42,418 nt of DNA, taken from assembly GCA_028822155.1 (NCBI GenBank), contig JAPKEJ010000016.1, positions 1 through 42,418 of the forward strand. The letters run 5' to 3'. Shown here in pieces: positions 10,313-42,418 of the stretch. The translations under genes were made by a program, and so were the position numbers. Position 1 is the first letter of the stretch. Each line of letters starts with the position of its first letter. Source of the stretch: Porticoccaceae bacterium (GTDB taxonomy: Bacteria; Pseudomonadota; Gammaproteobacteria; Pseudomonadales; Porticoccaceae). Under the pieces are notes generated by a model. That model was not told the DNA's origin and ran no database searches. It saw nothing but the letters and a program-made list of their open reading frames with translations.

Positions 10313-10461
10313 AATTTAAACGTCTTCCCAAACTGAATGGCCAAATCTTATTGGCTGACTATAAAACCTTAAAAAAATAAGCGCGAAAGTCCTCTCGAAA
10401 CTCTCTTCGAAATTCTTTTCACGCCTAATTAGAGACAGGGTAAGATACTTACCGATAGTAG

Positions 10462-12396
10462 TTACTTACTATCTTCTTTTGTATCCTCTTCTTTCTCATC
10501 TTTAACTTCTTCAAACTCTGCATCCATTGCATCATCACCTGCCGGCTCTTCGCCTGCTGCTTGCTCACCCGCTTCAGCTTGCTCTGCATACATCTTCTGG
10601 GCTAAACCAGATGATGCTTCAGATAGAACTTTAGCTGCTTCATCGATGGCCTCTTTATCATCGCCCTGAACAGCTTCTTCAACCTGCTTAATGGCGGCTT
10701 CGATGGCCGACTTCTCTTCGTCAGAGGCCTTATCTCCAGCTTCCTCAAGAGTTTTCTTGGCGGCGTGAGCCAAACCATCGGCGGTATTACGTGCTTGAAC
10801 CACCTCTTCAAACTTCTGATCTTCAGCTGCATTAGCTTCGGCATCCTTTACCATTGCATCGATTTCTTCATCAGACAATCCCGAGGACGCCTTGATAATG
10901 ATCGACTGCTCTTTACCAGTGGCTTTATCCTTAGCACCAACATGCAGAATACCGTTAGCATCAATATCAAAGGTCACTTCAATCTGCGGCATCCCGCGCG
11001 GAGCCGGTGGAATATCGGCTAAGTCGAAACGACCCAATGATTTATTACCTGTTGCTTGCTTGCGCTCACCCTGAACAACGTGAATAGTTACGGCAGACTG
11101 GTTGTCATCAGCGGTAGAGAAAATTTGTGATTTTTTGGTCGGGATCGTCGTGTTTTTCTCGATCACTGGTGTCGCCACACCACCCATAGTTTCTATACCC
11201 AAGCTTAAGGGAGTTACATCAAGTAACAATACGTCAGTCACATCACCAGACAAGACTGCACCCTGTAACGCAGCACCAACGGCGACTGCTTCGTCGGGAT
11301 TAACATCTTTTCGCGGCTCTTTTCCGAAAAAGGCGGTTACTTTTTCTTGCACCAAAGGCATACGAGTCTGACCGCCCACTAAGATAATTTCATCTATCTT
11401 ATTTTTCCCAAGCTTTGCATCGTCTAGAGCGACCTGGAGCGGTTTCAATGAACGTTCAACCAAATCTAAGACCAATGATTCAAGCTTGGCGCGAGTCAAC
11501 TTAACAACCAAGTGCTTTGGGCCGGTAGCATCAGCGGTAATATAAGGTAAATTAACTTCCGTTTGCTGGCTCGACGACAACTCGATTTTTGCTTTCTCGG
11601 CAGACTCTTTTAGACGCTGCATTGCCAATGGATCGCCATGTAAATCAATGCCACTGTCTTTCTTGAATTCATCTGATAAATGCTCGATCAAGCGCATATC
11701 GAAGTCTTCACCACCTAGAAATGTGTCACCATTAGTTGCTAATACTTCAAATTGCTTTTCACCGTCGACATCAGCTATTTCAATGATCGAGATGTCAAAA
11801 GTGCCACCACCCAGATCGTAAACAGCAACAACACTATCACCTGCACTTTTATCCATACCATAAGCCAACGCCGCAGCTGTTGGCTCATTAATAATACGCT
11901 TTACGTCTAATCCAGCTATTCGCCCAGCATCTTTGGTTGCTTGACGTTGTGAGTCATTAAAATAAGCTGGAACGGTAATAACCGCCTCAGTTACTTTTTC
12001 ACCCAGATAGTCTTCAGCCGTTTTCTTCATCTTCTTTAGGATTTCAGCAGAAATCTGCGGCGCAGCTTTGCTATCGCCCTTAATCTCAACCCATGCATCG
12101 CCGTTATCAGCTTTGACGATTTTATAAGGCACCATTTTAATATCTTTTTTAACCACTTTATCTTCAAAGCGACGGCCAATTAGACGCTTAACTGCATAAA
12201 CCGTATTTTCCGGATTCGTCACAGCCTGTCGTTTAGCAGACTGGCCAACCAAGATCTCGCCACCGTCAACATAGGCAACCACAGATGGAGTAGTGCGCGC
12301 ACCCTCCGAATTTTCAATTACCTTGGGTTTATCTCCTTCGAGCACGGCAACACATGAATTCGTCGTTCCCAAATCAATTCCGATAATCTTTCCCAT
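10462..12396 (-). CDS. dnaK: Chaperone DnaK (Hsp70)
   Basis: This is an ATP-dependent Hsp70 chaperone working with DnaJ and GrpE. Visible are the N-terminal phosphate loop [14 protein letters not shown], the [10 protein letters not shown]-type phosphate 2 motif, the VGGQTRMP adenosine motif, the hydrophobic linker [13 protein letters not shown], the beta substrate domain and an acidic C-terminal tail rich in Glu and Asp. The ATG at 12396 is chosen rather than the GTG one codon earlier because the family start is [10 protein letters not shown] and GGAGAG lies about 8 bases in front. A sigma-32-like promoter lies about 75 bases upstream. Confidence 0.97.
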
Positions 12397-29978: not shown

Positions 29979-31358
29979 TTATTCGAAGACACGGCCTCGA
30001 TTGAGAATGGCCTTGGGGTCCATAGCAACTTTTAAAGTCTTCATTAACGCGATTTCGGCAGCACTTCTCGATAACGGGAGATAATCGCGTTTCAAAACAC
30101 CTACACCATGTTCTGCCGTGATGGCTCCAGAATATTCGCCAATCAACTGCATAATGTCATGACTTATCTTAGTCTTATCTTCCTCGCGGCCAGTATAGGC
30201 GCAGATATGCATATTGTTATCACCAATATGACCAAATAGTAAAACTGAAATACCTGGGTATTTAGCTTTTAATCGCCGCTCAAGGTCAGTGGCAAATAAA
30301 CCAATATCTGCAACAGGGAGACTGACATCTTGGTTGGATACCGGACCTAGCACTTGAAATAGTTCCCCAATACCATCGCGTATCTGCCAAAATTTCTCTG
30401 CATCTTGGTAGGATTTAGCAATAACTGCGTCCTGTAAAACCCCTAACTCCAACTGTTTATACAACACGGCCTCGAATCGATCTGCTCCCAACTGTTGATC
30501 ATTGTCGAGGTATTCCACCAATAAATAAAATGGAAATTGGCCCTCTAAAGGACTCGACAATGCAGGAATTACCTCTAGTACCTTTTCGTAATAGTTATCC
30601 CACATGAGCTCAAAACCGGTCAGCCCGGGGCCGAGACTACGCTTAAGTTGAACTAATAATTTAATAACTGATGAATAGTCCGCCACTGCACAGAGTGCGG
30701 TATGAGTACTACGAGCTTTCGGCTGCAGCTGCAATACGACGCGAGTTACAATGCCCAAGGTCCCCTCTGAGCCAATAAAAAGATGTTTAAGGTCGTAACC
30801 CGAATTGTTTTTGACTAATGTGTTCATGGCATTAATCTGGGTGCCGTCGGCCAAGACAGCCTCCAAACCTAAAACCAGCGCGCGAGTCATGCCATAGCGA
30901 ATGACTTCAGTGCCCCCCGCGTTGGTAGATACATTTCCACCGATTTGACAACTCCCTCGAGCGCCTAAATCTAACGGCAACGAGAGATTATGATCATCCG
31001 CTGCGTCTTGTAAAACCTGCAACGGTGTTCCCGCTAGTGCAGTCAATGTCATCCCAGAAGGATCGATAGTTTCTATTCCCCGCATTCTCTCAAGAGAAAT
31101 TGCTAATTCTCCGGCTAGAGGAGTTGCACCGCCAGCCAGGCCGGTCAAACCACCCTGAATGACGACGGGCTGGTCATATTCAAAACACAGGGCCATTATC
31201 TCAGAGAGTTGATCTGTTGTTTTGGGCTTTAATAAAACAGATGGCGCACAGGGATCTGCGCCACTCCAGTCTGCATGATATTTTTCACTAATATCCTCAC
31301 CAAGGGAGAGGCTTGGACGGTCTAAAATCGCTGAGAGTTTGTCAATTAAATTACTCAT
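29979..31358 (-). CDS. FAD-dependent D-2-hydroxyacid dehydrogenase, copy 2
   Basis: Same length (459) and family as the gene at 25220-26599; by eye roughly three quarters of residues are identical and no gap is needed. The FAD-binding glycine-rich stretches and GHIGDNNMH, EHGVGVLKRDYL are all kept, so both should be active. Differences concentrate in the C-terminal half around the substrate pocket, and near the end copy 2 has NRGR where copy 1 has the usual NPGR. It is the last gene of the minus-strand row cupin-Dabb-dehydrogenase, 141 bases after the Dabb gene. The gap holds no feature that I recognise. Confidence 0.85.
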   Translation of the reverse strand: MSNLIDKLSAILDRPSLSLGEDISEKYHADWSGADPCAPSVLLKPKTTDQLSEIMALCFEYDQPVVIQGGLTGLAGGATPLAGELAISLERMRGIETIDPSGMTLTALAGTPLQVLQDAADDHNLSLPLDLGARGSCQIGGNVSTNAGGTEVIRYGMTRALVLGLEAVLADGTQINAMNTLVKNNSGYDLKHLFIGSEGTLGIVTRVVLQLQPKARSTHTALCAVADYSSVIKLLVQLKRSLGPGLTGFELMWDNYYEKVLEVIPALSSPLEGQFPFYLLVEYLDNDQQLGADRFEAVLYKQLELGVLQDAVIAKSYQDAEKFWQIRDGIGELFQVLGPVSNQDVSLPVADIGLFATDLERRLKAKYPGISVLLFGHIGDNNMHICAYTGREEDKTKISHDIMQLIGEYSGAITAEHGVGVLKRDYLPLSRSAAEIALMKTLKVAMDPKAILNRGRVFE

Positions 31359-31499: not shown

Positions 31500-31790
31500 T
31501 TAACACTCAAAATCCATGGCCAGAATATCAGCATTCTTAACCAGCTTTTTACCAACAGCTACATGCGCAGGATGACTAATATAAGCTTGGAGAGCCCGTT
31601 GATCGGCCACCGTCACTATAATGCCGTGAGTAAAGCCATCAGCGCGATCAGTTATATTTATGCCACTATTAACACTTTGTATCTCTGAAATAACGTTTGC
31701 CAAACTGCAGACTTCGTCTAGCAGAACTTGCATCTGTTGTTGACTGCAATAATCTTTTTTCTTTAACCACACTATATGTTGAAGGGGCAT
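31500..31790 (-). CDS. Dabb (stress-responsive A/B barrel) domain protein
   Basis: A 96-residue single-domain protein with the Dabb ferredoxin-like pattern: the N-terminal QHIVWLKKK strand, a helix (about 15-30), VNSGINITDRADGFTHGIIVTV and the C-terminal YISHPAHVAVGKKL, where the conserved His-Pro-x-His lies. Dabb proteins dimerize into a barrel; some are cyclases or decarboxylating enzymes, others lack a known activity. The ATG at 31790 with GAGAG upstream is preferred over a TTG four codons earlier. It lies between the cupin gene and dehydrogenase copy 2. Confidence 0.75.
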   Translation of the reverse strand: MPLQHIVWLKKKDYCSQQQMQVLLDEVCSLANVISEIQSVNSGINITDRADGFTHGIIVTVADQRALQAYISHPAHVAVGKKLVKNADILAMDFEC

Positions 31791-31815
31791 AAGGTCTCTC
31801 AAGCACTACTAAACG

Positions 31816-31906: not shown

Positions 31907-32992
31907 TTAGGCCTGCACCTTTAACATAGTGGACGCCAATAGCGTTGTATCATTGGGATTCGCACTAGGAATTAACTCCACGCCAAAGGCTGCTGCCAGC
32001 TCTTTATACTCTATCCATGAGAGCACGGCAGAGACAGGCGTGCCTTTCCCTTCATCAAAAATAAGCGGGCCGTAGACATTGGCTGTATAAATCAAATCTT
32101 CATCGGTCACCCGTTGAGTGGCATCGTGACGAGCGCCTGATGGCTCAAAAAACCATACGCCTGGGCCATAACCCTCTGGAGGCCCAGCGCGATAACCAAT
32201 GTGTCCATTAAGAACAAGAAAATCACTAGAACCAATGTGGGTGTGCCCCGACGCAACTCCATTCTGTCGCACAATCAACGAGATATAACCATTGTCTTCA
32301 CTAACACGCAGAATTTTCAAGCCTATATCGGGTAGGTCTGGGAGAATTACCCAGGGCACCTGTCTAGTGTCTACGAAGTGCGGATGATTGAAGCCACCAG
32401 TACCTGCAGCTTCACTCTCCACAGAGTCAACCAATTTTTGCCCATTTGTACCTGTAATAGCCAGCGGCTCAGGACTATTTTTTAGTTCTTCTGGTCGATC
32501 CTGTATGCAAGCTGATAGTGTACTAGGCACCAAGGTCACACCATATTGTCGAGCCAAACGCATAATATCAAGACTAGTTAGAATACTTGCTATCGATTGC
32601 TGGTCATCTAAAAAAGCGACAGCGCCATAAAAATTCGCAAGAAACTCCGACTCCTCATCCGCACGCATTTCCGCAACCTTTGAGTTTGCTGAAATATAGC
32701 CCCAGGTGCCTGGTATCAAACGACTTTCCTGATCATCCTGCCTATAGGTAATTTGGCCCGATAATAATGTTAGATCCATACCACTTAAATAAACCGCAGC
32801 TGGCATTTTTGATCCAGCATCGAGTTTTACGATAACTGAATAGGAACCCGTTTCGGCACTCGCTCTCATGGTCTTTAAAGACATGCCAGGCACTTCTTTG
32901 ATCGCGATCCATGGCAACAGGTTGGTATCGACACCACCTTCTATGCCGGTAGGGTTATAATCTGGATTAAATTGCTCTGTAACTTGACTCAT
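31907..32992 (-). CDS. Tandem cupin protein, 2,4'-dihydroxyacetophenone dioxygenase-like
   Basis: A 361-residue protein made of two similar cupin (ChrR-like) domains, each starting with a VDT..PWI/V..K segment (21-32 and 207-217). In the second domain the three-His metal site can be seen: H250-T-H252 and H289 in SGARHDATQ. In the first domain the matching positions read GSKMPAAVY (60-68) and SKVAEM, with no His, so it probably does not bind metal. The family includes 2,4'-dihydroxyacetophenone dioxygenase, which cleaves a C-C bond. The ATG at 32992 with GAGGGA is chosen. It has its own promoter and a dyad operator upstream. Confidence 0.7.
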   Translation of the reverse strand: MSQVTEQFNPDYNPTGIEGGVDTNLLPWIAIKEVPGMSLKTMRASAETGSYSVIVKLDAGSKMPAAVYLSGMDLTLLSGQITYRQDDQESRLIPGTWGYISANSKVAEMRADEESEFLANFYGAVAFLDDQQSIASILTSLDIMRLARQYGVTLVPSTLSACIQDRPEELKNSPEPLAITGTNGQKLVDSVESEAAGTGGFNHPHFVDTRQVPWVILPDLPDIGLKILRVSEDNGYISLIVRQNGVASGHTHIGSSDFLVLNGHIGYRAGPPEGYGPGVWFFEPSGARHDATQRVTDEDLIYTANVYGPLIFDEGKGTPVSAVLSWIEYKELAAAFGVELIPSANPNDTTLLASTMLKVQA

Positions 32993-33021: not shown

Positions 33022-33050
33022 ATAATATTTCCACTAAAAATTTAAACTAA
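33022..33050 (-). promoter_or_regulatory. Candidate promoter of the cupin gene
   Basis: On the minus strand TTAGTT (33050-33045), 17 bases, TATTAT (33027-33022), about 30 bases before the cupin ATG. The dyad operator lies just upstream of the -35 element. Confidence 0.5.
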
Positions 33051-33062
33051 CACTAGTCGCTA

Positions 33063-33086
33063 TAGGTAGTAGATGAGTACTACCTA
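33063..33086. promoter_or_regulatory. Dyad operator, site A (GTAGTA-N6-TACTAC)
   Basis: TAGGTAGTA (33063-33071), six bases, TACTACCTA (33078-33086): a perfect 24-bp palindrome with 9-bp arms. It lies 13 bases upstream of the -35 of the cupin promoter. The same core recurs at 39765 and 40357. Confidence 0.65.
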
Positions 33087-33171
33087 AAGTGCTTTTTATG
33101 CTGAGGATACAAACCTCTACTTTTAAAAAATTAGCCCTTAAATTTCTCTCATGAACGGTCCCTGCATCTCA

Positions 33172-33693
33172 TCAGTTGCCAACCACTGCGCTGGTAATAA
33201 TATTAGAGGTCCCCTCTGCAGATAGTACCTCTATCCAATAACCATCGGGATCCTTTATAAATGCTAATCCCTTCATTGCGCCATCGTCTGGCCGCTTAAC
33301 GTACTCTACACCTAGTTCATCGAAGCGCTCACAGGCGGCGTAAACATCCGGCACCGTGATACCAATATGTCCAAACCCCTTAGGTTCTTCATTGCCCGAA
33401 TGATAACCACCAAAATCATTATCTGCTTCAGTGCCCCAATTATGCGTCAGCTCGATGGTACCTATCTGATTGAACACCCAAACAACCTTAGCCGGCCCGG
33501 CTGCTGGTGGCTCGCCAACCAGCCCGTTCTCGTAAGCGAGAAAATAGAGTGAAAACTCCATGCTGTCGAAGTCATAACGATCGAGCAAGGTCATCCCTAG
33601 TACATCGCGATAAAAAGGAATTGAAACCGCCGGATCTTTGATCCGCAGCATCGTTTGGGTTAGCTTGTAATCTTGCGTATTGGTATTGGTCAT
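33172..33693 (-). CDS. gloA: Lactoylglutathione lyase (glyoxalase I)
   Basis: A 173-residue VOC-fold enzyme of the longer glyoxalase I type found in Pseudomonas and eukaryotes. It isomerizes the methylglyoxal-glutathione hemithioacetal to S-lactoylglutathione. The four predicted metal ligands are Gln13 (TQTMLRIKD), Glu81 (ELTHNWGTE), His109 (GFGHIG) and Glu155 (DGYWIEVL), and the glutathione contact FIKDPDG is present. A Gln first ligand is as in the human enzyme. It may be a housekeeping detoxifier or deal with a reactive aldehyde made by the pathway. No strong ribosome site is visible. Confidence 0.85.
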
Positions 33694-33799
33694 TATTTAA
33701 GGCCACTCATTATTATTACTCCAAATATGCCGTGTTAGAGATTGATCAAGTAACACAACATAACCTTTTACAACTAGCGATGATACGCAGTGCTATTAA

Positions 33800-34540
33800 C
33801 TACTCTCGAGGAAGATGCGCAAACACACTGTTCGTTACGCCTCCATCAACAACCATTTCATTGCCTGTTATGTATTTAGCCGCTTCAGAATCTAAAAATA
33901 ACACCGCATTGGTGATATCACTAGCATCCCCCAATGAACGCAATGGCACTCCACTACTGCGCTTCTCTCGTACTTTTGGGTCTTCAAAGAAGGGTTTTGA
34001 CATTCCTGCATCGATAAATCCAGGGGCTATAGAGTTGACTCGAATGCCCAGGGGACCCCATTCAATTGACATTAATTGAGTCAAAGAATGCAGTGCGGCC
34101 TTGGTAGCCGCATATAGCCCGACCCCTGGTGCGGGATGGACTCCATTGACTGACGTTATGTTAATAATATGTCCCGACCCCCTAGTAATCATGCCCTTAA
34201 CAGCAACTCGCGAGCATAGACATGGGCCAAGTAGATTCGTTTCTATCACCTGGGTGTAATCTGAGACAGCCTGCTCATGCAGCGGGCCGATGCGAACAAT
34301 CCCAGCATTGTTGATCAACAGATCGGGAGCCTCACCGAACGCTGTAAAGGCTGCTTCGACCGCATCATTATCACTAACACTGGCAATTAGTGGTATTGCA
34401 TTACCAAGCCGACTGGCGGTCGCTTCAGTTTGCCGCTTATCCAGGTCCATAATACCGACTTGATAGCCAGCTTTGACTAAGGCAGCGGCCATATCCGCCC
34501 CCAAACCTGTGGCGCCGCCGGTTACAATCGCTCGTCTCAT
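33800..34540 (-). CDS. Short-chain dehydrogenase/reductase, classical type
   Basis: A 246-residue SDR with all canonical elements: the cofactor loop TGGATGLG (7-14), an acidic Asp32 after the second strand that favours NAD, NNAG (77-80), Asn102, and the catalytic Ser130, Tyr143 and Lys147 (YAATK). DGGVT is near the C-terminus. It should oxidize an alcohol or reduce a ketone in the pathway. GAGGAG precedes the ATG and the gene follows the ACMSD-like gene after 28 bases on the same strand, so it is part of that operon. Confidence 0.85.
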   Translation of the reverse strand: MRRAIVTGGATGLGADMAAALVKAGYQVGIMDLDKRQTEATASRLGNAIPLIASVSDNDAVEAAFTAFGEAPDLLINNAGIVRIGPLHEQAVSDYTQVIETNLLGPCLCSRVAVKGMITRGSGHIINITSVNGVHPAPGVGLYAATKAALHSLTQLMSIEWGPLGIRVNSIAPGFIDAGMSKPFFEDPKVREKRSSGVPLRSLGDASDITNAVLFLDSEAAKYITGNEMVVDGGVTNSVFAHLPRE

Positions 34541-34568
34541 AAAACTACTCCTCGGGCTCTGATTTCAC

Positions 34569-35573
34569 TCATTGGTTGATACGCAATAAACGTCTGGCAT
34601 TGTCGGCAAGTAACTTCAACCAGGCAGTATCACTACCCAAATTGTGCTGATCCCAGCCAGCAAAATTAGTACCTAAAAGAAGATGGTCGGTGCCCAGTAC
34701 ATTGACCGCAAAATCCAGTACCCGCGGATCATGAACATGATTATCAAACCATAATTTTGATAAATAGGCTTCGAAGGCACCGTCTTTACGCAACGCTTCG
34801 CTAGCCCAAGGGCGGCGCATTCCAGCCTCATTGAGTCTGCCTATTAACATAGGAATGGCGCCGCCAGCATGACTAAAGCAAATATCTAAATTTGGATGCC
34901 TTTCCAATACACCGCCATAGATAAGGGTGGCTATAGCAAGTGTCTCTTGGGAGGCAAAGCCCGTTAATATATCCAAGTCATACTGAGTTAAATTAGGGTC
35001 GCCTTTGGGCCCATCAAGACCAGCTGGGGCAGGATGAATAAAGAGTGGTACATCGAGCGCAACTAATTTTTCATAGAATGGATCTAGATCTGAACTGTCC
35101 AGATGGTGCCCAATATCAGTTCCTATATAGGCGCCGATTAGGCCCAATTCCATTACGGCTCGCTCTAATTCATCGCAGGCTGCGGCAATATCCTGCATGG
35201 GCAACGCAGCTAAACCGCGAAAGCGATCAGGATAGGCTTTGATGCGGGATTGCAGTGCATTATTGTGCTGCTGGCAAAAGTTAATGGCATCGCTAGCTTC
35301 GATAAAATGAAAGTAACTCAATGGATTTGGCGACAAAATTTGGCAATCTATTCCAGCTAAGTCCATTCCCCTTAGTCGAATCTCCATATCCATAAAAGCA
35401 CTGTTCTCATACTTCACACCATGCAAGTAATAATCTCCAACGCGGAACCAGGGCTTGTTATTCTCATCGCAACCAATTTCAGGACCAAACTCACCCGCCT
35501 GATGCATGCTCTCGACTAGCACGATATGTGCGTGCACATCGATAGTTTTGGCATTGTTCATTGTGATAGTCAC
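34569..35573 (-). CDS. Amidohydrolase-2 family protein, ACMSD-like
   Basis: A 334-residue TIM barrel related to aminocarboxymuconate-semialdehyde decarboxylase and gamma-resorcylate decarboxylase, enzymes that remove a carboxylate or hydrolyse C-C bonds of ring-derived acids. Predicted metal and catalytic residues: His14 and His16 (DVHAH), His180 (LFIHPAP), His235 (FSHAGG). The barrel-end position usually held by Asp (GTD) is Asn303 here (GTNFAGWD). The start is GTG at 35573, with AGGAG five bases upstream overlapping the stop of the preceding SDR gene; an in-frame ATG four codons later lacks a site. The gap to that SDR is 8 bases. Confidence 0.78.
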   Translation of the reverse strand: MTITMNNAKTIDVHAHIVLVESMHQAGEFGPEIGCDENNKPWFRVGDYYLHGVKYENSAFMDMEIRLRGMDLAGIDCQILSPNPLSYFHFIEASDAINFCQQHNNALQSRIKAYPDRFRGLAALPMQDIAAACDELERAVMELGLIGAYIGTDIGHHLDSSDLDPFYEKLVALDVPLFIHPAPAGLDGPKGDPNLTQYDLDILTGFASQETLAIATLIYGGVLERHPNLDICFSHAGGAIPMLIGRLNEAGMRRPWASEALRKDGAFEAYLSKLWFDNHVHDPRVLDFAVNVLGTDHLLLGTNFAGWDQHNLGSDTAWLKLLADNARRLLRINQ

Positions 35574-35581
35574 GACGTCTC

Positions 35582-36370
35582 CTAAACCGTTTGCGCGCAG
35601 CCGCCATCGACTGGTATAGCAGCACCAGTAATATAACTAGCTGCCGGTGAGGCAAGAAAAAGAGCCACTGCAGCTATTTCTTCTGGCTGGGCCAAACGCT
35701 GCAGAGGTATTTTTGAGATGATTTGGTTGGCAAGCTCTCGCGGATCTACACCCTGTGCATCAGCGCGCACCTCAAGTAATTGATCAACACGCTGAGTCTG
35801 CGTCCAGCCTGTGCAGATGGTATTAACCAAGATATTGTATTGTCCAACTTCATTAGACAAGGTCTTAGCCCACCCCAGTGCAGCAAGACGCAGACTGTTG
35901 GATAACAGCATAGAGTCCATTGGCTGTTTTACCGAATATGATGACAAATTAATGATTCGACCACCGCCGGAGGCTTTCATACCCGGCAAGACTAGGTTAG
36001 TCAGGCGAACCGCAGAACGTAAGGTTAAATCAAATGCGGCGCCCCACTGCTCATCATTGATACTGTCATGATTGCCTGATGGTGGCCCACCAGCATTATT
36101 AATCAACACATCGACCGTACCCCATTGGCCGAGAAGGTCATCCATCATATTACCAATATCTGCCGCCACACTGAGATCGGCAACAAATGCTAGTACCGGC
36201 TTACCCGTCTTAGCTTCAATTTCCTGCTGAGCCTCTTTTAATTGTTCTTCTCCGCGCGCACAGATGGCAACCTGCGCACCAGCCAGTTGAAAGGCACACG
36301 CTGTTGCCTTACCAATACCACTACTGGCAGCACTCACTAAAACCCTTTGTGTCGATGTGTCGGTGCTCAT
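35582..36370 (-). CDS. SDR-family protein lacking the YxxxK catalytic pair
   Basis: A 262-residue protein with a Rossmann fold of SDR type: ASSGIG (15-20), NNAGGPP (91-97), NLSS (141-144) and DGG near the end. Counting from Ser144, the usual catalytic Tyr position is Ser157 and the Lys position is Arg161 (SNSLR). This variant, with NNAGGPP and SNxxR, forms a recognized subgroup related to beta-ketoacyl-ACP reductases but without the canonical residues; its reaction is not established. It lies between two hydrolase genes, 8 bases from the next gene downstream and 41 bases after the previous one. Confidence 0.8.
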   Translation of the reverse strand: MSTDTSTQRVLVSAASSGIGKATACAFQLAGAQVAICARGEEQLKEAQQEIEAKTGKPVLAFVADLSVAADIGNMMDDLLGQWGTVDVLINNAGGPPSGNHDSINDEQWGAAFDLTLRSAVRLTNLVLPGMKASGGGRIINLSSYSVKQPMDSMLLSNSLRLAALGWAKTLSNEVGQYNILVNTICTGWTQTQRVDQLLEVRADAQGVDPRELANQIISKIPLQRLAQPEEIAAVALFLASPAASYITGAAIPVDGGCAQTV

Positions 36371-36411
36371 AGGTTACTCTCTCGATTGGGTCACAGACCC
36401 GCGGTAATCCT

Positions 36412-37743
36412 TCATTTTTTATGGGCCAAATCATAGGTCAAAATGTCCGTTGAATACTGCCCAGCTCGCCAGCCTGGGATATTCCAATCACCAGACAATG
36501 GCTGGTCCATATTCACTAGTTTGCCAGCCTTGAAGACCGCACGAATATTAGTCTTTTCCCCTAGTAAATTAATATCTGCCTCTAAGTCTCCCTCAACTAG
36601 GACTAGGTCGGCGATATAGTTTTCTTCAATGCGACCCAATTCGTTTTGCAGACCAAAAATACTCGCTCCAGCTTCTGTGGCACAGGCAATGGCCTCCAAC
36701 GGAGTGAGTCCCAGATGCTCCACAAACAGACCCATTTCTCGGTAGTGCCAGTCGCCATAAGGGGTGACTGAAAAACCACTCTCGCTACCACACATTAGCG
36801 GGACCCCCGCGTCATAGGCGCGACGTAACATAGCGGAGCTCTGCGCGATCTCATTACGAAATATATTTTGCAGCGCCGGGTTTGAGCCAATTTTATCGCC
36901 ATAATCAATTAAGTTAGCTAAGAATGTGAACGTAGGCACCAGAGAGACACCCTTATCAATCACCACCCCTAGTGCCTCTTCATCCATATAAGAGGCGTGT
37001 AATATCATATCGAAACCTGCGAGCGCAGCATCTCTAGTGCTAGACGCGTTGCGGCAATGGCCCACGACAGGCACCCCTAGGGCATGCGCTGTGTCACAAA
37101 CAAGCCGCAATTCATCCAATGTCCAAGCTTGAATCTCGCCGTCGCCGTGCATTGGCGTTTTACGTACCGGAAGGCCGCTGACATGGACCTTGATCCAATC
37201 ACAGCCCGCTTTTACTTGGCAACGAATTTCACGAACAATCTCGTCAGCAGTCTGGACGATAACCGCGTAACCCAGCTTACCACTATCGGGTAATAGCCGG
37301 CCAGCCGTGCCACCTACGCTAGTGATCAACACATTACCTCCAGTCGCCATACGAGGGCCTTCTACAACCCCTGCTTCCATCGCATCTCTCAGATCAATAC
37401 CCACATCGAATATGCAGTCAGCGTCGAAAAAACTTGTTACCCCAGCGCGCAATACTTTTTGGGCATTAACCGAGGCCACAATACTGGCGAGACCAGGCCG
37501 ACGATGAAAGAATAATTCATCGTTGGACTTAGGCCGATCAAAGCTAATATGGCAGTGCGCATCGATGAGGCCAGGAATCAGAGTGCAACCTCTGCCGTCG
37601 ACAACATTAACCGACTCATCCGCGGCCGAAATTGCTTTATCGCCAAGGGCTACAATACGATCTTGCTCAATAAGTACGGAGCTAAGAGACTGCTGACCCC
37701 CTGAAATGATCTTGGTGTTTTTAATCAGATAAGCGCTATTCAT
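36412..37743 (-). CDS. Metal-dependent amidohydrolase, imidazolonepropionase/Xaa-Pro dipeptidase-like
   Basis: A 443-residue amidohydrolase. The N- and C-terminal beta sandwich surrounds a TIM barrel. Binuclear-site residues are visible: His63-x-His65 (DAHCH), Lys185 (WIKVHVSG, probably carboxylated), His229 (GHCR), His249 (LHAS). The final ligand position, normally Asp in GTDSG, is Glu321 in GSESGFSVTPYG. Relatives hydrolyse cyclic amides, lactones, dipeptides or organophosphates. No signal peptide is seen. It follows the Rieske gene after 73 bases, where no feature stands out, and it has no strong ribosome site. Confidence 0.78.
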   Translation of the reverse strand: MNSAYLIKNTKIISGGQQSLSSVLIEQDRIVALGDKAISAADESVNVVDGRGCTLIPGLIDAHCHISFDRPKSNDELFFHRRPGLASIVASVNAQKVLRAGVTSFFDADCIFDVGIDLRDAMEAGVVEGPRMATGGNVLITSVGGTAGRLLPDSGKLGYAVIVQTADEIVREIRCQVKAGCDWIKVHVSGLPVRKTPMHGDGEIQAWTLDELRLVCDTAHALGVPVVGHCRNASSTRDAALAGFDMILHASYMDEEALGVVIDKGVSLVPTFTFLANLIDYGDKIGSNPALQNIFRNEIAQSSAMLRRAYDAGVPLMCGSESGFSVTPYGDWHYREMGLFVEHLGLTPLEAIACATEAGASIFGLQNELGRIEENYIADLVLVEGDLEADINLLGEKTNIRAVFKAGKLVNMDQPLSGDWNIPGWRAGQYSTDILTYDLAHKK

Positions 37744-37816
37744 AGGTTTAATCTCATGCAGTTATTGTCCGCAGTTTAAGGTAAGAATATCGATACTATA
37801 CGATCTGTATGACCAA

Positions 37817-39001
37817 TTAGTTTTCATAAGATCTGCGTTTAGGCCGCTGCCAGCTATTATTTTTTGAATCCATAAATTTCGCTATCCAGCGATGGTAATT
37901 CTGAACGGCAGGCTCGTTACGACCAAATAAGAAGTGGTCATTAGCGCCAGACTCTAGACCTGACTGTATGGAAAAACCAATACCATAGTCTTCTTCTTGC
38001 ACAGCCTTTAACGTCAACGCACTAAACTCGTTAGTTGCTTTAAGTTGTTCCGACGTTTCTGGTTTCTTTGCTACTAAAATAGTTTGGCGCGTAATGGTGG
38101 TAGCAGGGGTTTCGCCTGGAAATACCTGACTCACTAAACAATGGTCACCGAGAATGCCAGATATTGAGAGGTTCGGGAACCCAGAATGGATAAGGCGGAT
38201 ATGTTCATCGGGACACCATTGGTCGCGAGGTTGGTCAATTAGATCACGTAGTGATTTACGTCCAAAAGTGAGTCTCTGGTGAGGGCCATAAGTATCCAAA
38301 ACCAGAAGATTGCCCACAGTATATTTGCCCACCGTCTCGCGGTGCACTAACTGGTGATGGTAGGCTTCCAGATATCCGTCCATGGTCACTTTCCAACCGG
38401 GGCCAGGTAAATCGCGCTGTTCATGCATATGCCAGTTGGCTAGATCTAGGGTGCTTAACTCATCGCCAAAGTCGCCCAACCAGGTGTCGATATTAAATAC
38501 TTCTCCCGCTGTCAGACAAACCCAGACAATGCCTGCTTTTTCCTCGCAATGAAGTAAGGTTAAACCATATTGATCGTTTTCTATATCGCCAAAAGTCGTG
38601 CCGCCATAGCGACCGACTAAGTCTCCCTTCTGGTTATAGCTCCAAGCGTGATAAGGGCAGGTAATCATTTGCCGACTGCCTGCACCTTCTTTACACAGCT
38701 GAGCACCCCGGTGACTGCATACATTAAGCATGGCCCTAACCTGCATATCTTCGCCTCGGATGAGCAATATTGGTACACCCATTAGCGTCATTGCGCGGTA
38801 GTTGCCCGCTTCGGGTAACTCAAGACTGAGTGCCGCAGCAAGTGGTAGATGCTTGAAAATACGCTCAACTTCAACGTCGTATCTACCTGCGTCACGATAA
38901 GCCGACAGCGGAATCTCCATTGTTGATTCAGCTTGATCCGTAGTTTTATCAGCAAAGTGGCGGAGCGCCCTTGCCGCTAGCGCCAGCGTTTCCTTGTTCA
39001 T
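37817..39001 (-). CDS. Rieske non-heme iron oxygenase, alpha subunit
   Basis: A 394-residue aromatic-ring-hydroxylating-type oxygenase. The Rieske [2Fe-2S] ligands are Cys95-x-His97 (CSHRGAQ) and Cys115-x2-His118 (CPYHAW). The catalytic domain carries the bridging Glu212 and iron ligands His215 and His220 (LEAYHHQLVH); an acidic EED at about 345 is a candidate third ligand. The Glu bridge resembles carnitine monooxygenase CntA more than naphthalene dioxygenase. No ferredoxin or reductase gene is present in the window, so electrons must come from elsewhere. Its ATG overlaps the stop of the SnoaL-like gene by 4 bases (ATGA), giving tight coupling. Confidence 0.87.
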   Translation of the reverse strand: MNKETLALAARALRHFADKTTDQAESTMEIPLSAYRDAGRYDVEVERIFKHLPLAAALSLELPEAGNYRAMTLMGVPILLIRGEDMQVRAMLNVCSHRGAQLCKEGAGSRQMITCPYHAWSYNQKGDLVGRYGGTTFGDIENDQYGLTLLHCEEKAGIVWVCLTAGEVFNIDTWLGDFGDELSTLDLANWHMHEQRDLPGPGWKVTMDGYLEAYHHQLVHRETVGKYTVGNLLVLDTYGPHQRLTFGRKSLRDLIDQPRDQWCPDEHIRLIHSGFPNLSISGILGDHCLVSQVFPGETPATTITRQTILVAKKPETSEQLKATNEFSALTLKAVQEEDYGIGFSIQSGLESGANDHFLFGRNEPAVQNYHRWIAKFMDSKNNSWQRPKRRSYEN

Positions 39002-39558
39002 AATGCGTCTTCTGACGCAAAGCGTTGCCAGCTCTCTAGACTCTCAGGAAAATCTGCAGCATGCCAGGCACCCTCTATAAAAACTCTATCTGTCTGATTA
39101 AGACCCTCATTATATTTGGTCACTGGAACATAGTAGAAAAAATTAATCTCCCGTCGACTAAAACGCCAAACTCCATCTTCGCGCACATAGCTATCTTTGT
39201 ATTTCATTGCCGCTAGGCTGACAACACCGTTTGGCGTCGTTTCCGCGTGACTATAAACTAGCCCAGTAGCGCGATCGACATTATCAGAGTCGATAGTGGC
39301 ATGCACATCATGTGTCCAATGAAATCCAGGGCCTCGCGTTTTCAGTATGACGCTAAACATATCGCGAATAGCATCGCGGCCAGTGGATACCATGGCGCCG
39401 TTTGGCGAGCAAAAAACCGCATCCTCAGAGAATAAATCAGCCAGCCTAGGAATATCATGCTCATCACAGGCAATCGCATAAGCTGTAGCTAATGTCCGGA
39501 TCGATTGGTGTGACTCAAGACAATCTAATCGCCGTAAAATACTCTCTAGGTCTATCAT
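38998..39558 (-). CDS. SnoaL-like (NTF2-fold) protein
   Basis: A 186-residue protein of the SnoaL_4 type: an N-terminal helix, DEHDIPRLADLFSEDAVF (32-49), GRDAIRDMF (60-68), the WTHDVHATID strand and a WRFSRREINFFYY strand at about 131-143. The fold is that of scytalone dehydratase and also of the beta subunits of ring-hydroxylating dioxygenases. It is the first gene of the six-gene minus-strand row and overlaps the Rieske alpha gene by 4 bases, so it may pair with that subunit or act as a dehydratase or isomerase. AAGGAAATCACG precedes the ATG. Confidence 0.75.
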   Translation of the reverse strand: MIDLESILRRLDCLESHQSIRTLATAYAIACDEHDIPRLADLFSEDAVFCSPNGAMVSTGRDAIRDMFSVILKTRGPGFHWTHDVHATIDSDNVDRATGLVYSHAETTPNGVVSLAAMKYKDSYVREDGVWRFSRREINFFYYVPVTKYNEGLNQTDRVFIEGAWHAADFPESLESWQRFASEDAL

Positions 39559-39764
39559 CGTGATTTCCTTTGACTTACATCGATAACATGTTTAATTAAA
39601 GTATCCGTTTAGAATACCCTAATAACTACTAATATTGGCCAAGTTAGCCCCGCTCGCATAGCACTAAATCTAAACCCTGTAAGGCTCTGACGCAACCAGT
39701 TTTCCTCAGTATACTTAGATTTTTCATATGCTCAGTAATACTAGCCATGGGCAGTTTATTTTTG
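39559..39764. other. Intergenic region upstream of the Rieske operon
   Basis: No gene was found here. It must hold the promoter of the minus-strand SnoaL-Rieske unit; only AT-rich segments with weak -10-like ACTTTAAT are visible near 39595. The full gap to the next gene is 39559-39877. Confidence 0.5.
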
Positions 39765-39782
39765 GTAGTACCTGACTGCTAC
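39765..39782. promoter_or_regulatory. Dyad operator, site C (one mismatch)
   Basis: GTAGTA (39765-39770), six bases, TGCTAC (39777-39782): the same spacing as sites A and B with one mismatch. It lies 31 bases upstream of the -35 of the ribbon-helix-helix gene and about 205 bases from the start of the divergent SnoaL gene. Confidence 0.5.
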
Positions 39783-39813
39783 TTTATAGGCCCTTTTACC
39801 ATGATGTTCAAGG

Positions 39814-39842
39814 TTGCATGCTCGGTCGGTTAAGATTAATAT
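39814..39842 (+). promoter_or_regulatory. Promoter of the ribbon-helix-helix gene
   Basis: TTGCAT (39814-39819), 17 bases, TAATAT (39837-39842), 35 bases before the ATG at 39878. Confidence 0.55.
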
Positions 39843-39877
39843 CTAGAGGTGAAGAATTGGAATTAAAGAGGTGATTT

Positions 39878-40189
39878 ATGTGTGAAATTTTCTTACGCGG
39901 GGATTCAGCTTTATTTGAAAAAAGATCTCGTTCAATGCGTATTGACGGACACGTCACCAGTGTATGTGTCGAAGTTATATTTTGGGATCTGTTAGAGCGA
40001 GTATCCAGCGAACAAAATCTGAAATTATCGCAGTTTGTATCAGAATTATATCGCGAAGGGCTTGTAAAGACGGGTGAGGTAAATAATCTAAGTTCGGTAC
40101 TGCGTGTGGCATGCCTTAACTATCTAACCCATGAAGATACCGTCTTGCCTAACACCCAGACGACGCTTCAGGCCACTATGGCGAGTTAG
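39878..40189 (+). CDS. Ribbon-helix-helix domain protein (RHH_4 type)
   Basis: A 103-residue protein whose middle matches the RHH_4 family: SMRIDGHVTSVCVEVIFWDLLERVSSEQNLKL in outline, that is a beta strand (19-30), helix A with FWDLL (35-39), helix B with LSQFVSELYREG (50-61), and NNLSSVLRVACLNYL near residues 69-83. Such proteins usually dimerize and insert the strand pair in the DNA major groove, but RHH_4 members are poorly characterized. AGAGGTGATTT gives a good ribosome site. It lies between the Rieske operon and the TonB receptor gene, with a dyad operator upstream. It is the only visible regulator candidate of the region. Confidence 0.75.
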   Translation: MCEIFLRGDSALFEKRSRSMRIDGHVTSVCVEVIFWDLLERVSSEQNLKLSQFVSELYREGLVKTGEVNNLSSVLRVACLNYLTHEDTVLPNTQTTLQATMAS

Positions 40190-40356
40190 CTTTATACACT
40201 AGCCGAAAGACCAAATCGTCTAGAGCAATTTTTCCCCTCAATTTACCCCTTCAATTTAATAGGGTAACGCATAGCCTAAACATCCTCAATGCTAGCTAGG
40301 CCACCATTAATAGTTGGCTTTAGGTGTGATCACAAATGTCATTATCCAGCTAAACA
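40190..40356. other. Intergenic region between the RHH gene and the TonB receptor
   Basis: No gene seen. It contains a short inverted repeat TTACCC/GGGTAA near 40242-40266 without a T run and the 10-base palindrome TGTGATCACA at 40325-40334. The gene-free stretch continues to 40574. Confidence 0.5.
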
Positions 40357-40374
40357 GTAGTAATCATTTACTAC
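40357..40374. promoter_or_regulatory. Dyad operator, site B (GTAGTA-N6-TACTAC)
   Basis: GTAGTA (40357-40362), ATCATT, TACTAC (40369-40374), an exact copy of the site A core; the right flank CCCTAAA also resembles CCTAAA of site A. It lies 200 bases before the receptor ATG. A promoter between 40400 and 40520 is likely but no hexamer pair stands out (a TATAAA is at 40516). Confidence 0.6.
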
Positions 40375-40574
40375 CCTAAAACTATGTTCTCTCGCTAGGA
40401 TTGTTATTTGGAGGATCGTGTAGGGCAATCCTAAACTTATTTCCTTTGCCCTTGACGCTCCCATTTAACTGCGCAGTACCGTCTAAGACAAATCTAACTA
40501 GGTGGCATATTGCGTATAAAATCTATATTTAATTTAAAAAGAGTAGTTACAATAATTTAAAAGGGGTAGTTCTA

Positions 40575-42418
40575 ATGAATCATAAAAATATAAAAACTAA
40601 TATTTGGTCTCTGACCGCCATGAGTTTAGCTATAAGCACCTTCTCTGGCGTCACTATGGCTGAGGACATTTCTCTGCAACTCGAGGAAATTGTTGTCACC
40701 GCACGTAAACGTAACGAAAGCATGCTGGAAATTCCAGACTCAATTAAGATGATTACTGGTGAATCTGCGGCTAGACAGAATATTAAAGGCCTTAATAAGA
40801 TTGGTTTGGCTGTACCTAATGTGAATCTTTCGATGCGTGCTGATAGTTATCCCAACGTCTCTATTCGGGGTATTGGAGCGTTTGGTTTGACACAGGGTGT
40901 TGGTTTTCATGTTGACGACGTACAAATCTACAAGGGCGACGCATCCTCAAGATTTGGCGACATAGAGCGTATTGAAGTTCTAAAAGGACCTCAGGGCACT
41001 ATGTATGGCGGAAGCAACATTGGTGGTGCAATCAAGTACGTAACCAAACGTCCTACGACGGATGAAATGTCTGGCCGAGTTAAATTATTAGCAGGTGGAC
41101 AAGGCATAGTCGACGGCGAGGTTAGTCTTAATCTACCGCTTAATGACGATTGGGCGATGAGGGTGTTTGGTTATAACCGAACTGATGACGGTTTTATGAC
41201 TAATCCCAACTCTCCTTCGCCAGTGTTCGGCGAAATATCGAATCACCCAAAAAACATTACTCAATACGATGAGAGTGCCTTAAGACTTTCATTGGCTGGC
41301 GACGTGAGTGATACATTTTCGATCTATGCTACGGCGCGTTACAGCAAGTATGATGGACCAGCAAACAATTGGTCACGAGAGTTAATCGATGGTGCTGCTT
41401 ACTCAAACACAGGTAATGTGCCAGCCAATATGCAGTACTCCAATATATTGGATGTCAATAATCTTCCAGAGCATGATCGAGAAACGGTGGGTGCCTCGCT
41501 AGAGATGGTGTGGGAGAGAGACGGATATGATATAGCATCAATCACGTCCTACTCTGACACAGACAGCCTACGAAAGACCGATGTCGATGGCACACAACTT
41601 TGGTTTATTTATACCAATCGCCCCGAAACCTATAAGTTTACAACCCAAGAGCTACGTGTCACCTCTAATAATGACGGTAACGTGCAATGGATGGGTGGCC
41701 TCTACATGAGCGAAGGCAAAACAAGTATGCGCTCAACGCTAGACCTAGGATGGCTAATCTTAGGAGCGGATGAATTTATGAATTTCGCGGTGCCTTTTGA
41801 AACTAGTGACCAGACGGACAGTAAGTTAGCTGGTTTTGGTAATGTTACTGTTGACCTCGGAGAGTGGGAAATAGCTTTAGGTCTGCGACTAGACCGTTGG
41901 AAAGCTGAGAGAGAAGCAGTAGATATCGGCCATAAAGCCTCTCAATCAGATACTCAGGTTCTTGGTAATTTCTCGATGACTAAAACCATCTCTGATGATG
42001 CTATCGGGTACTTCTCAGTAGCGCAGGGCTATGAGCCCGGTCAGTGGAATGGTATCGCAGACGGTGCACCACCAGTATTTGGACCCAATGGTGAGAAAAC
42101 ACTCCTTGGGATCGATCCTGAGGAGCTAATCCAATATGAGCTAGGTTGGAAAGCCTCGGGGATGGATGGTCGTGGAAGCCTTACAGCGGCAATTTTCTAT
42201 AGCAACTACAATGATCGCATTTATCAATATGTAGTGGCCAACCCAGACGGAAGCGGGACTCTGATGGAAGCGCTCTTGAACGTCGGTGACTCTACTCAAA
42301 AGGGTATTGAGCTTGAAGCCAGTATCAAAGCCAATGAGTTCTTGCAAATATCTGGCTCATTAGGGTGGATCGATGCCACATGGGATAATGGCACAATGGT
42401 TGGTGATCTAGATCTTAG
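40575..42418 (+). CDS. TonB-dependent outer-membrane receptor (3' part outside window)
   Basis: The first 614 codons are open to the right edge. A signal peptide ends near residue 29 (VTMA followed by ED), the TonB box EEIVVTA is at 37-43, and the plug domain runs to about 160 with NVSIRGIGAF (94-103) and RIEVLKGPQGTMYG (132-145). Beta-barrel strands follow, with TSYSDTDS, ELRVTS and the late YELGWKASGMDGR and GIELEAS strands, so about 80-85% of a typical receptor is present. AAGGGG lies about 9 bases upstream. No Fur box precedes it; a dyad operator does. This points to uptake of an organic compound rather than iron. Confidence 0.9.
   Translation, partial: MNHKNIKTNIWSLTAMSLAISTFSGVTMAEDISLQLEEIVVTARKRNESMLEIPDSIKMITGESAARQNIKGLNKIGLAVPNVNLSMRADSYPNVSIRGIGAFGLTQGVGFHVDDVQIYKGDASSRFGDIERIEVLKGPQGTMYGGSNIGGAIKYVTKRPTTDEMSGRVKLLAGGQGIVDGEVSLNLPLNDDWAMRVFGYNRTDDGFMTNPNSPSPVFGEISNHPKNITQYDESALRLSLAGDVSDTFSIYATARYSKYDGPANNWSRELIDGAAYSNTGNVPANMQYSNILDVNNLPEHDRETVGASLEMVWERDGYDIASITSYSDTDSLRKTDVDGTQLWFIYTNRPETYKFTTQELRVTSNNDGNVQWMGGLYMSEGKTSMRSTLDLGWLILGADEFMNFAVPFETSDQTDSKLAGFGNVTVDLGEWEIALGLRLDRWKAEREAVDIGHKASQSDTQVLGNFSMTKTISDDAIGYFSVAQGYEPGQWNGIADGAPPVFGPNGEKTLLGIDPEELIQYELGWKASGMDGRGSLTAAIFYSNYNDRIYQYVVANPDGSGTLMEALLNVGDSTQKGIELEASIKANEFLQISGSLGWIDATWDNGTMVGDLDL

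Follow-up and report, generated by a model that had tools for sequence, protein, structure and literature searches.

Most described ribbon-helix-helix (RHH) proteins act as repressors, and class II activators such as CRP have their site at -41.5. Protein BP1543 (PDB 3kk4) served as a modelling template in the one open-access paper found that names 3kk4. TrcR (All0854) of Anabaena sp. PCC 7120 is a small RHH repressor that binds its own promoter, and its authors describe its lineage as restricted to cyanobacteria (PMC10272220). The 2012 paper on AmrZ of Pseudomonas gave AmrZ and H. pylori NikR as the only RHH proteins for which both activation and repression were known (PMC3325190). For the RHH family PF13467 (RHH_4) no described function was found in the open-access literature, most subscription papers being outside the search. 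The same open-access literature yielded no paper pairing ribbon-helix-helix with PF13467, RHH_4, DJ-1 or a class II promoter, and nothing on the point by title for the dyad words with regulon or for ribbon-helix-helix together with transcriptional activator and glyoxalase. PfpI is paired with ribbon-helix-helix in a review of P. aeruginosa regulators and in a transcriptome paper. Here a dyad, GTAGTA-N6-TACTAC, and an RHH_4 gene are described in a stretch of 42,418 nucleotides from a Porticoccaceae bacterium (assembly GCA_028822155.1, contig JAPKEJ010000016.1), referred to as the window. The window spans the full length of contig C51 in a genome of 2.44 Mb (2,444,599 bases in 108 contigs, 89% complete).

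The RHH_4 protein encoded at 39878-40189 on the plus strand is very likely the binder of the dyad, and GTAGTA-N6-TACTAC(C) would be its binding site. Sequence comparison shows the sites, their conservation, their dependence on RHH_4 and the preferred spacing to the -10. We infer that RHH_4 dimers bind directly to the two half-sites, which have their centres 12 bp apart and would stand in place of the -35. Bound RHH_4 would help RNA polymerase to a -10 starting 21-22 bases on, much as class II activators do, and upon a signal of the pathway would switch on a TonB-dependent receptor, a Rieske-oxygenase operon and a cupin operon together. Taken whole, with class II-type activation of all three units, this reading is judged fairly likely.

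The dyad in the window and in orthologous clusters

Dyad A (33066-33083) is exact and lies before the cupin-Dabb-FAD oxidase genes. Dyad C (40357-40374) is also exact and lies before the receptor gene. Dyad B (39765-39782) has one mismatch, with its perfect half towards the SnoaL-Rieske operon. With its outer bases dyad A reads GGTAGTA-N6-TACTACC at 33065-33084. A preliminary description of this DNA had reported these three copies, had placed them all between genes and had put the chance expectation at 0.003 per 42 kb. All were found at these positions and all are intergenic by the gene list used, in which intergenic DNA makes up about 11% of the window; the expectation for exact dyads was recomputed as 0.0034 per window, or 0.19 per genome.

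The whole of the window's own genome was scanned with the dyad pattern, and the reversed pattern served as control. Two exact places and four places with at most one mismatch were found, three of the four being dyads A, B and C and the fourth (C92:9171) lying within a Nudix coding frame. Many copies scattered in coding regions had been named as an observation that would speak against a regulatory site; there was one further place in the genome. By chance 7.0 places with at most one mismatch are expected per genome, and the reversed pattern gave seven. The one-mismatch total is not above chance, while the exactness, clustering and intergenic position are; what carries the finding is thus exactness, clustering and conservation, and not the total. 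At the three-mismatch level the window holds 12 words against 11.8 expected, which is chance. A two-mismatch dyad, ATAGTAGTTACTTACTAT, at 10455-10472 shares bases with the 3' end of a gene on the minus strand and is probably a chance word.

Orthologous clusters, some of them partial, were read in G008, G003, G039, G099 and G108, with G000 also counted. The exact dyad precedes the cupin gene in all five readable clusters (G000, G003, G039, G099 and G108) and the receptor gene in all four (G000, G008, G003 and G099), the window's own included, and conservation upstream of orthologues was the test that the preliminary description had proposed. In the five cupin and three receptor sites compared, none of the 12 half-site bases varies, and most spacer positions do. 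The one-mismatch form of dyad B is kept in G008 and G003. Gene order differs in G039 and G099; here dyads precede the glyoxalase-SnoaL-Rieske genes and also lie in the gap between the amidohydrolase and cupin genes, which are divergent, and in G039 one stands before the Dabb gene as well. A chance likeness of three intergenic words would agree with the one-mismatch count, four seen for about seven expected in the genome. Such an origin is contradicted by dyads that are conserved before orthologues while their spacers vary, as well as by the family-wide association and the preferred -10 spacing given below, and is extremely improbable.

Contigs C1 and C14 of G039 (L052 and L053) carry two diverged copies of the glyoxalase-SnoaL-Rieske end, each with dyads. 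This double cluster end is a duplication or comes from mixed strains. The nearest relative of the receptor in G039 lies on contig C4, outside the cluster, and has 42% identity; no site with two or fewer mismatches stands just before it.

Association of the site with RHH_4

The RHH_4 gene of the window encodes 103 amino acids. The product matches PF13467 over residues 16-83 with 73.9 bits (cut-off 25) and is the only PF13467 match found in its genome. RHH_4-like stretches were found in 9 of 50 genomes of the genus, a broken one in G039 counted. Exact dyads were present in six of these nine genomes versus none of the 41 genomes without RHH_4. The genus set holds 13 exact dyads, ten of them on the same contig as RHH_4; of the others one lies on G003:C36 and two on G039:C14. 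Because the reversed pattern has nine exact places in eight genomes of this set, it is location and not count that tells. In three genomes (G016, G004 and G014; L050, L051 and L047) RHH_4 stands beside unrelated housekeeping genes with an exact or one-mismatch dyad nearby. The neighbours in G016, the one genome of the three to which Pfam was applied, include lpxK-type, murB-type and chorismate-binding genes.

GTDB genomes were scanned with an RHH_4 alignment, which gave at least 578 encoding stretches, and the best 80 loci (1.43 Mb) were used. They contain 57 exact or one-mismatch sites, and for 47 of these RHH_4 is no more than 1 kb away. With the spacing set to 4, 5, 7 and 8, these half-sites gave 0, 0, 0 and 2 sites, respectively. 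Scrambled half-sites gave 0-13 in total and reversed half-sites 12-29, with 0-4 near RHH_4 in either case. The site precedes a unit that contains or adjoins RHH_4, namely DJ-1/PfpI-RHH_4, glyoxalase-GMC oxidoreductase-RHH_4 or RHH_4 alone. Across Proteobacteria, the operons of RHH_4 relatives, often of the DJ-1/PfpI-RHH_4 form, have the site ahead of them. Five f13 genomes have another cluster (gene 18, GMC oxidoreductase, glyoxalase) with dyads before its units and RHH_4 adjoining. Just one of the 80 loci has an actinobacterial label. This is L092, a contig labelled Nocardioides marinus, which has DJ-1 and RHH_4 genes with the site and represents contamination or transfer.

At the level of the order 293 genomes were sampled, with completeness of 90% or more for all but the window's genome, and scanned with the pattern GTAGTA-N6-TAHTACC. 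PF13467 was found in 62 genomes and the site in 69; both occurred in 43, RHH_4 only in 19, the site only in 26 and neither in 205 (Fisher p 5e-19, a statistic that ignores kinship). Within 5 kb of RHH_4 lie 44 of the 85 sites, in 41 genomes, and genomes without RHH_4 average 0.12 sites. DJ-1 orthologues (E <=1e-40) are present in 54 of the 293 genomes, 43 with RHH_4 and 11 without. The site was found upstream of DJ-1 in all 43 genomes with RHH_4 versus none of the 11 without. Of these 43 genomes, 31 have it in exact form, 61-136 bp upstream of the DJ-1 match. For the remaining 12, the best word in the 400 bp upstream departs from the closer of two consensus forms at one or two bases and is found at a distance of 64-120 bp. 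The best upstream word in the 11 genomes without RHH_4 has three to six mismatches. From this comparison the site therefore follows RHH_4 and not the DJ-1 gene.

Several observations weigh against RHH_4 as the binder. G039 keeps five perfect dyads, two of them on a contig piece without RHH_4, and its only detected RHH_4 stretch (L052:12801-13260) is broken, lying in several frames with stops. In G108 a perfect dyad is present and no RHH_4 was detected. An exact dyad of G003, at C36:274, lies away from RHH_4. The exact pattern is missing from 19 of the 62 RHH_4 genomes of the order, 12 of which have a form with one or two mismatches before DJ-1. Nine of 45 labels have no site with two or fewer mismatches in the region scanned, and kinship inflates the association tests. 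The dyads kept in G039 and G108 would be expected if another regulator, encoded elsewhere, bound the dyad and RHH_4 were a mere neighbour or co-regulator. Both genomes are incomplete (76% and 74%, respectively), and the site follows RHH_4 across differing gene neighbourhoods as well as in the DJ-1 comparison, which makes another regulator very unlikely.

The dyad on contig C36 of G003 (L046:274-291) sits in a longer perfect palindrome. No -10-like hexamer was found at offset 22 on either side of it.

Promoter geometry and the sign of regulation

Sites were oriented towards the target gene and the -10 was scored over offsets 8-59 downstream of the dyad. On average the best offset was 22 for 16 own-type promoters, for 36 one-per-genus sites (of 45 labels) and for 16 f13 sites, and in each of the three sets the observed peak was reached by none of 2000 rotations. 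TANNNT begins at offset 21 or 22 in all 19 cluster promoters, three divergent ones included, several rows being near-copies. Among the first 16 cluster promoters 11 have it at offset 22 and five at 21. In the window the predicted -10-like hexamers all start at offset 22: TAAATT for the cupin promoter (33039-33044, minus strand, from dyad A), TAGTAT for the SnoaL-Rieske operon (39738-39743, minus strand, from dyad B) and TAGGAT for the receptor promoter (40396-40401, plus strand, from dyad C). No recognisable -35 was found; in the 52-site set the best candidate for a -35-like word falls inside the dyad end at 19-bp spacing. With the -10 placed at -12 to -7, the predicted dyad centre is -42.5. 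Class II activators are marked by a site centred near -41.5 and the lack of a consensus -35, and the dyad, with its predicted centre and no -35 recognised, agrees with both.

The preliminary description had placed -35 elements 15-31 bases downstream of dyads A and C. None was found there, and the dyad itself occupies the -35 place with the -10-like hexamer 22 bases on. Dyad B had been assigned to the promoter of the RHH gene; its -10-like hexamer points instead to the SnoaL-Rieske operon on the minus strand, and towards the RHH gene no TANNNT occurs at offsets 21-22 in the window. The promoter geometry supports the earlier view that the position is more that of an activator than of a steric repressor. 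A composite pattern allowing two mismatches was found in the own genome at the three dyads of the window (two without a mismatch and one with 1) and at four other places with two mismatches, and the reversed control gave seven. The regulon detectable in the own genome by this pattern is this cluster.

Part of the geometry counts the other way. The single best -10 falls at offset 21-22 in only 5 of 16, 16 of 36 and 5 of 16 rows of the three sets. If the scan is not confined to offsets 8-59, dyad-internal words such as TAGTAT reach equal or higher scores in most sets. In a mixed set of nine further directions, the six highest peaks do not include offset 22.

Words of this kind would suit an RHH_4 repressor which is bound to the dyad over the promoter and released by an inducer. 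The -10-like words held within the dyad score highly in 25 of 52 rows of the family set. TG stands before the -10 at offsets 19-20 in 20 of 26 DJ-1 rows (G351 and G112 each counted twice), and extended -10 promoters can function without a -35. TrcR shares the half-site word, represses and has its site overlapping the -10 (PMC10272220). A steric repressor needs no downstream -10-like hexamer at a preferred offset. In addition, the own-cluster promoters lack both a -35 and the TG, and there is no -35 peak about 17 bases upstream of the dyad-internal -10-like words. Repression from the dyad is considered rather unlikely. Judged by geometry alone, RHH_4 is probably an activator.

The RHH_4 protein, its gene cluster and known systems

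The window RHH_4 is predicted to have a strand followed by two helices like Arc/MetJ, the RHH fold, from a structural model and a fold match. Strand positions 27-32 are highly conserved among 81 aligned RHH_4 sequences. Residue 30 is Arg in 76 of the 81 and Cys in four, the window protein among the latter. The change from Arg30 to Cys, in the strand predicted to face the DNA, was considered as the cause of the symmetric sites in the window's lineage and found no support; the f13 genomes keep Arg30 and their sites are symmetric too. The own-type proteins (own, L078, L079 and L080) form one clade with support of 100/98 in a tree of a short protein with many unresolved forks. The RHH_4 of Vibrio tapetis (L081) groups with the own-type and f13 proteins, and no site with two or fewer mismatches was found near it.

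Each of the 81 aligned proteins has both Cys2 and Cys79, with two caveats: the 80 loci were chosen by a peptide pattern covering position 79 and not position 2, and an in-frame upstream start is possible for 30 of the 80. Removal of Met1 would leave Cys2 as a free 1,2-aminothiol, a chemistry that traps aldehydes. The two invariant cysteines suggest a cysteine-based sensor. Of the 80 loci, 62 have DJ-1/PfpI as a neighbour of RHH_4 and 9 have GMC oxidoreductase, and glyoxalase-fold proteins occur in several clusters. Such neighbours fit a sensor of aldehydes, other electrophiles or oxidants, and RHH_4 may tentatively be seen as a widespread proteobacterial class II activator family sensing them via the N-terminal cysteine. 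If this were true, the window's lineage would have recruited such a sensor to run a whole oxygenase and uptake cluster.

The receptor gene behind dyad C (40575-42418, plus strand) is truncated by the contig end. The genes behind dyads A and B are all on the minus strand. Behind dyad B the first gene encodes a SnoaL-like protein (38998-39558) and is followed by genes for a Rieske oxygenase alpha subunit (37817-39001) and an amidohydrolase (Amidohydro_1, 36412-37743), a gene like those of short-chain dehydrogenases/reductases (SDR; 35582-36370, labelled by resemblance only, with no Pfam scan), and genes for a second amidohydrolase (Amidohydro_2, 34569-35573), an SDR oxidoreductase (33800-34540) and a glyoxalase-fold protein (33172-33693, NCBIfam glyox_I above cut-off). 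The SnoaL-like, Rieske and both amidohydrolase labels are from Pfam. Behind dyad A a ChrR-like cupin gene comes first (31907-32992), followed by genes for a Dabb-domain protein (31500-31802) and an FAD-linked oxidase (29979-31358, Pfam). The open reading frame list starts the cupin gene at GTG 33034; ATG 32992 has GAGGG ahead of it and looks the better start. The preliminary description had one regulator controlling uptake, oxygenation and ring-processing genes. Joint control of the receptor, the oxygenase operon and the cupin operon is very probable from the shared sites, and the ring-processing label is a guess.

The nearest described factor is TrcR, with half-site words in common and another arrangement, position and sign. 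As in the dyad, the TrcR site ATACTACACTTGTATTAC contains TACTAC/TATTAC half-site words (PMC10272220). The TrcR half-sites are direct repeats 11 bp apart, whereas those of the dyad are inverted and 12 bp apart. TrcR represses, and its sites overlap the -10, whereas the dyad is placed upstream of its predicted -10. The TrcR lineage would be marked by direct TAYTAC repeats across the -10, and these were not found here; the dyad is an inverted repeat with a spacer of 6. The phage record KU230356, said in the paper to hold a TrcR homologue (PMC10272220), gave no PF13467 match at E up to 10, TrcR itself not being compared.

A DNA code and a candidate mode of action can now be proposed for PF13467. 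The code is GTAGTA-N6-TAHTACC followed by a -10 starting about 22 bases on, and it allows candidate regulons to be read from genomes. The genes under the site (DJ-1/PfpI, glyoxalase, GMC oxidoreductase and here the Rieske/cupin/TonB cluster) hint at the signal. BP1543 (3kk4), called uncharacterised, was compared with RHH_4 among the top Foldseek matches after realignment.

AmrZ presumably belongs to a different family from RHH_4. It is likewise an RHH protein, able to activate, and its dimers read two half-sites; its half-sites are GGC, unlike those of the dyad, and it activates algD from 282 bp upstream (PMC3325190). The dyad resembles the sites of class II activators such as CRP in standing in place of the -35 with its predicted centre near -42.5. 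The CRP fold is unrelated, and the class II likeness here comes from sequence geometry alone. RHH proteins acting from a class II position would be unusual.

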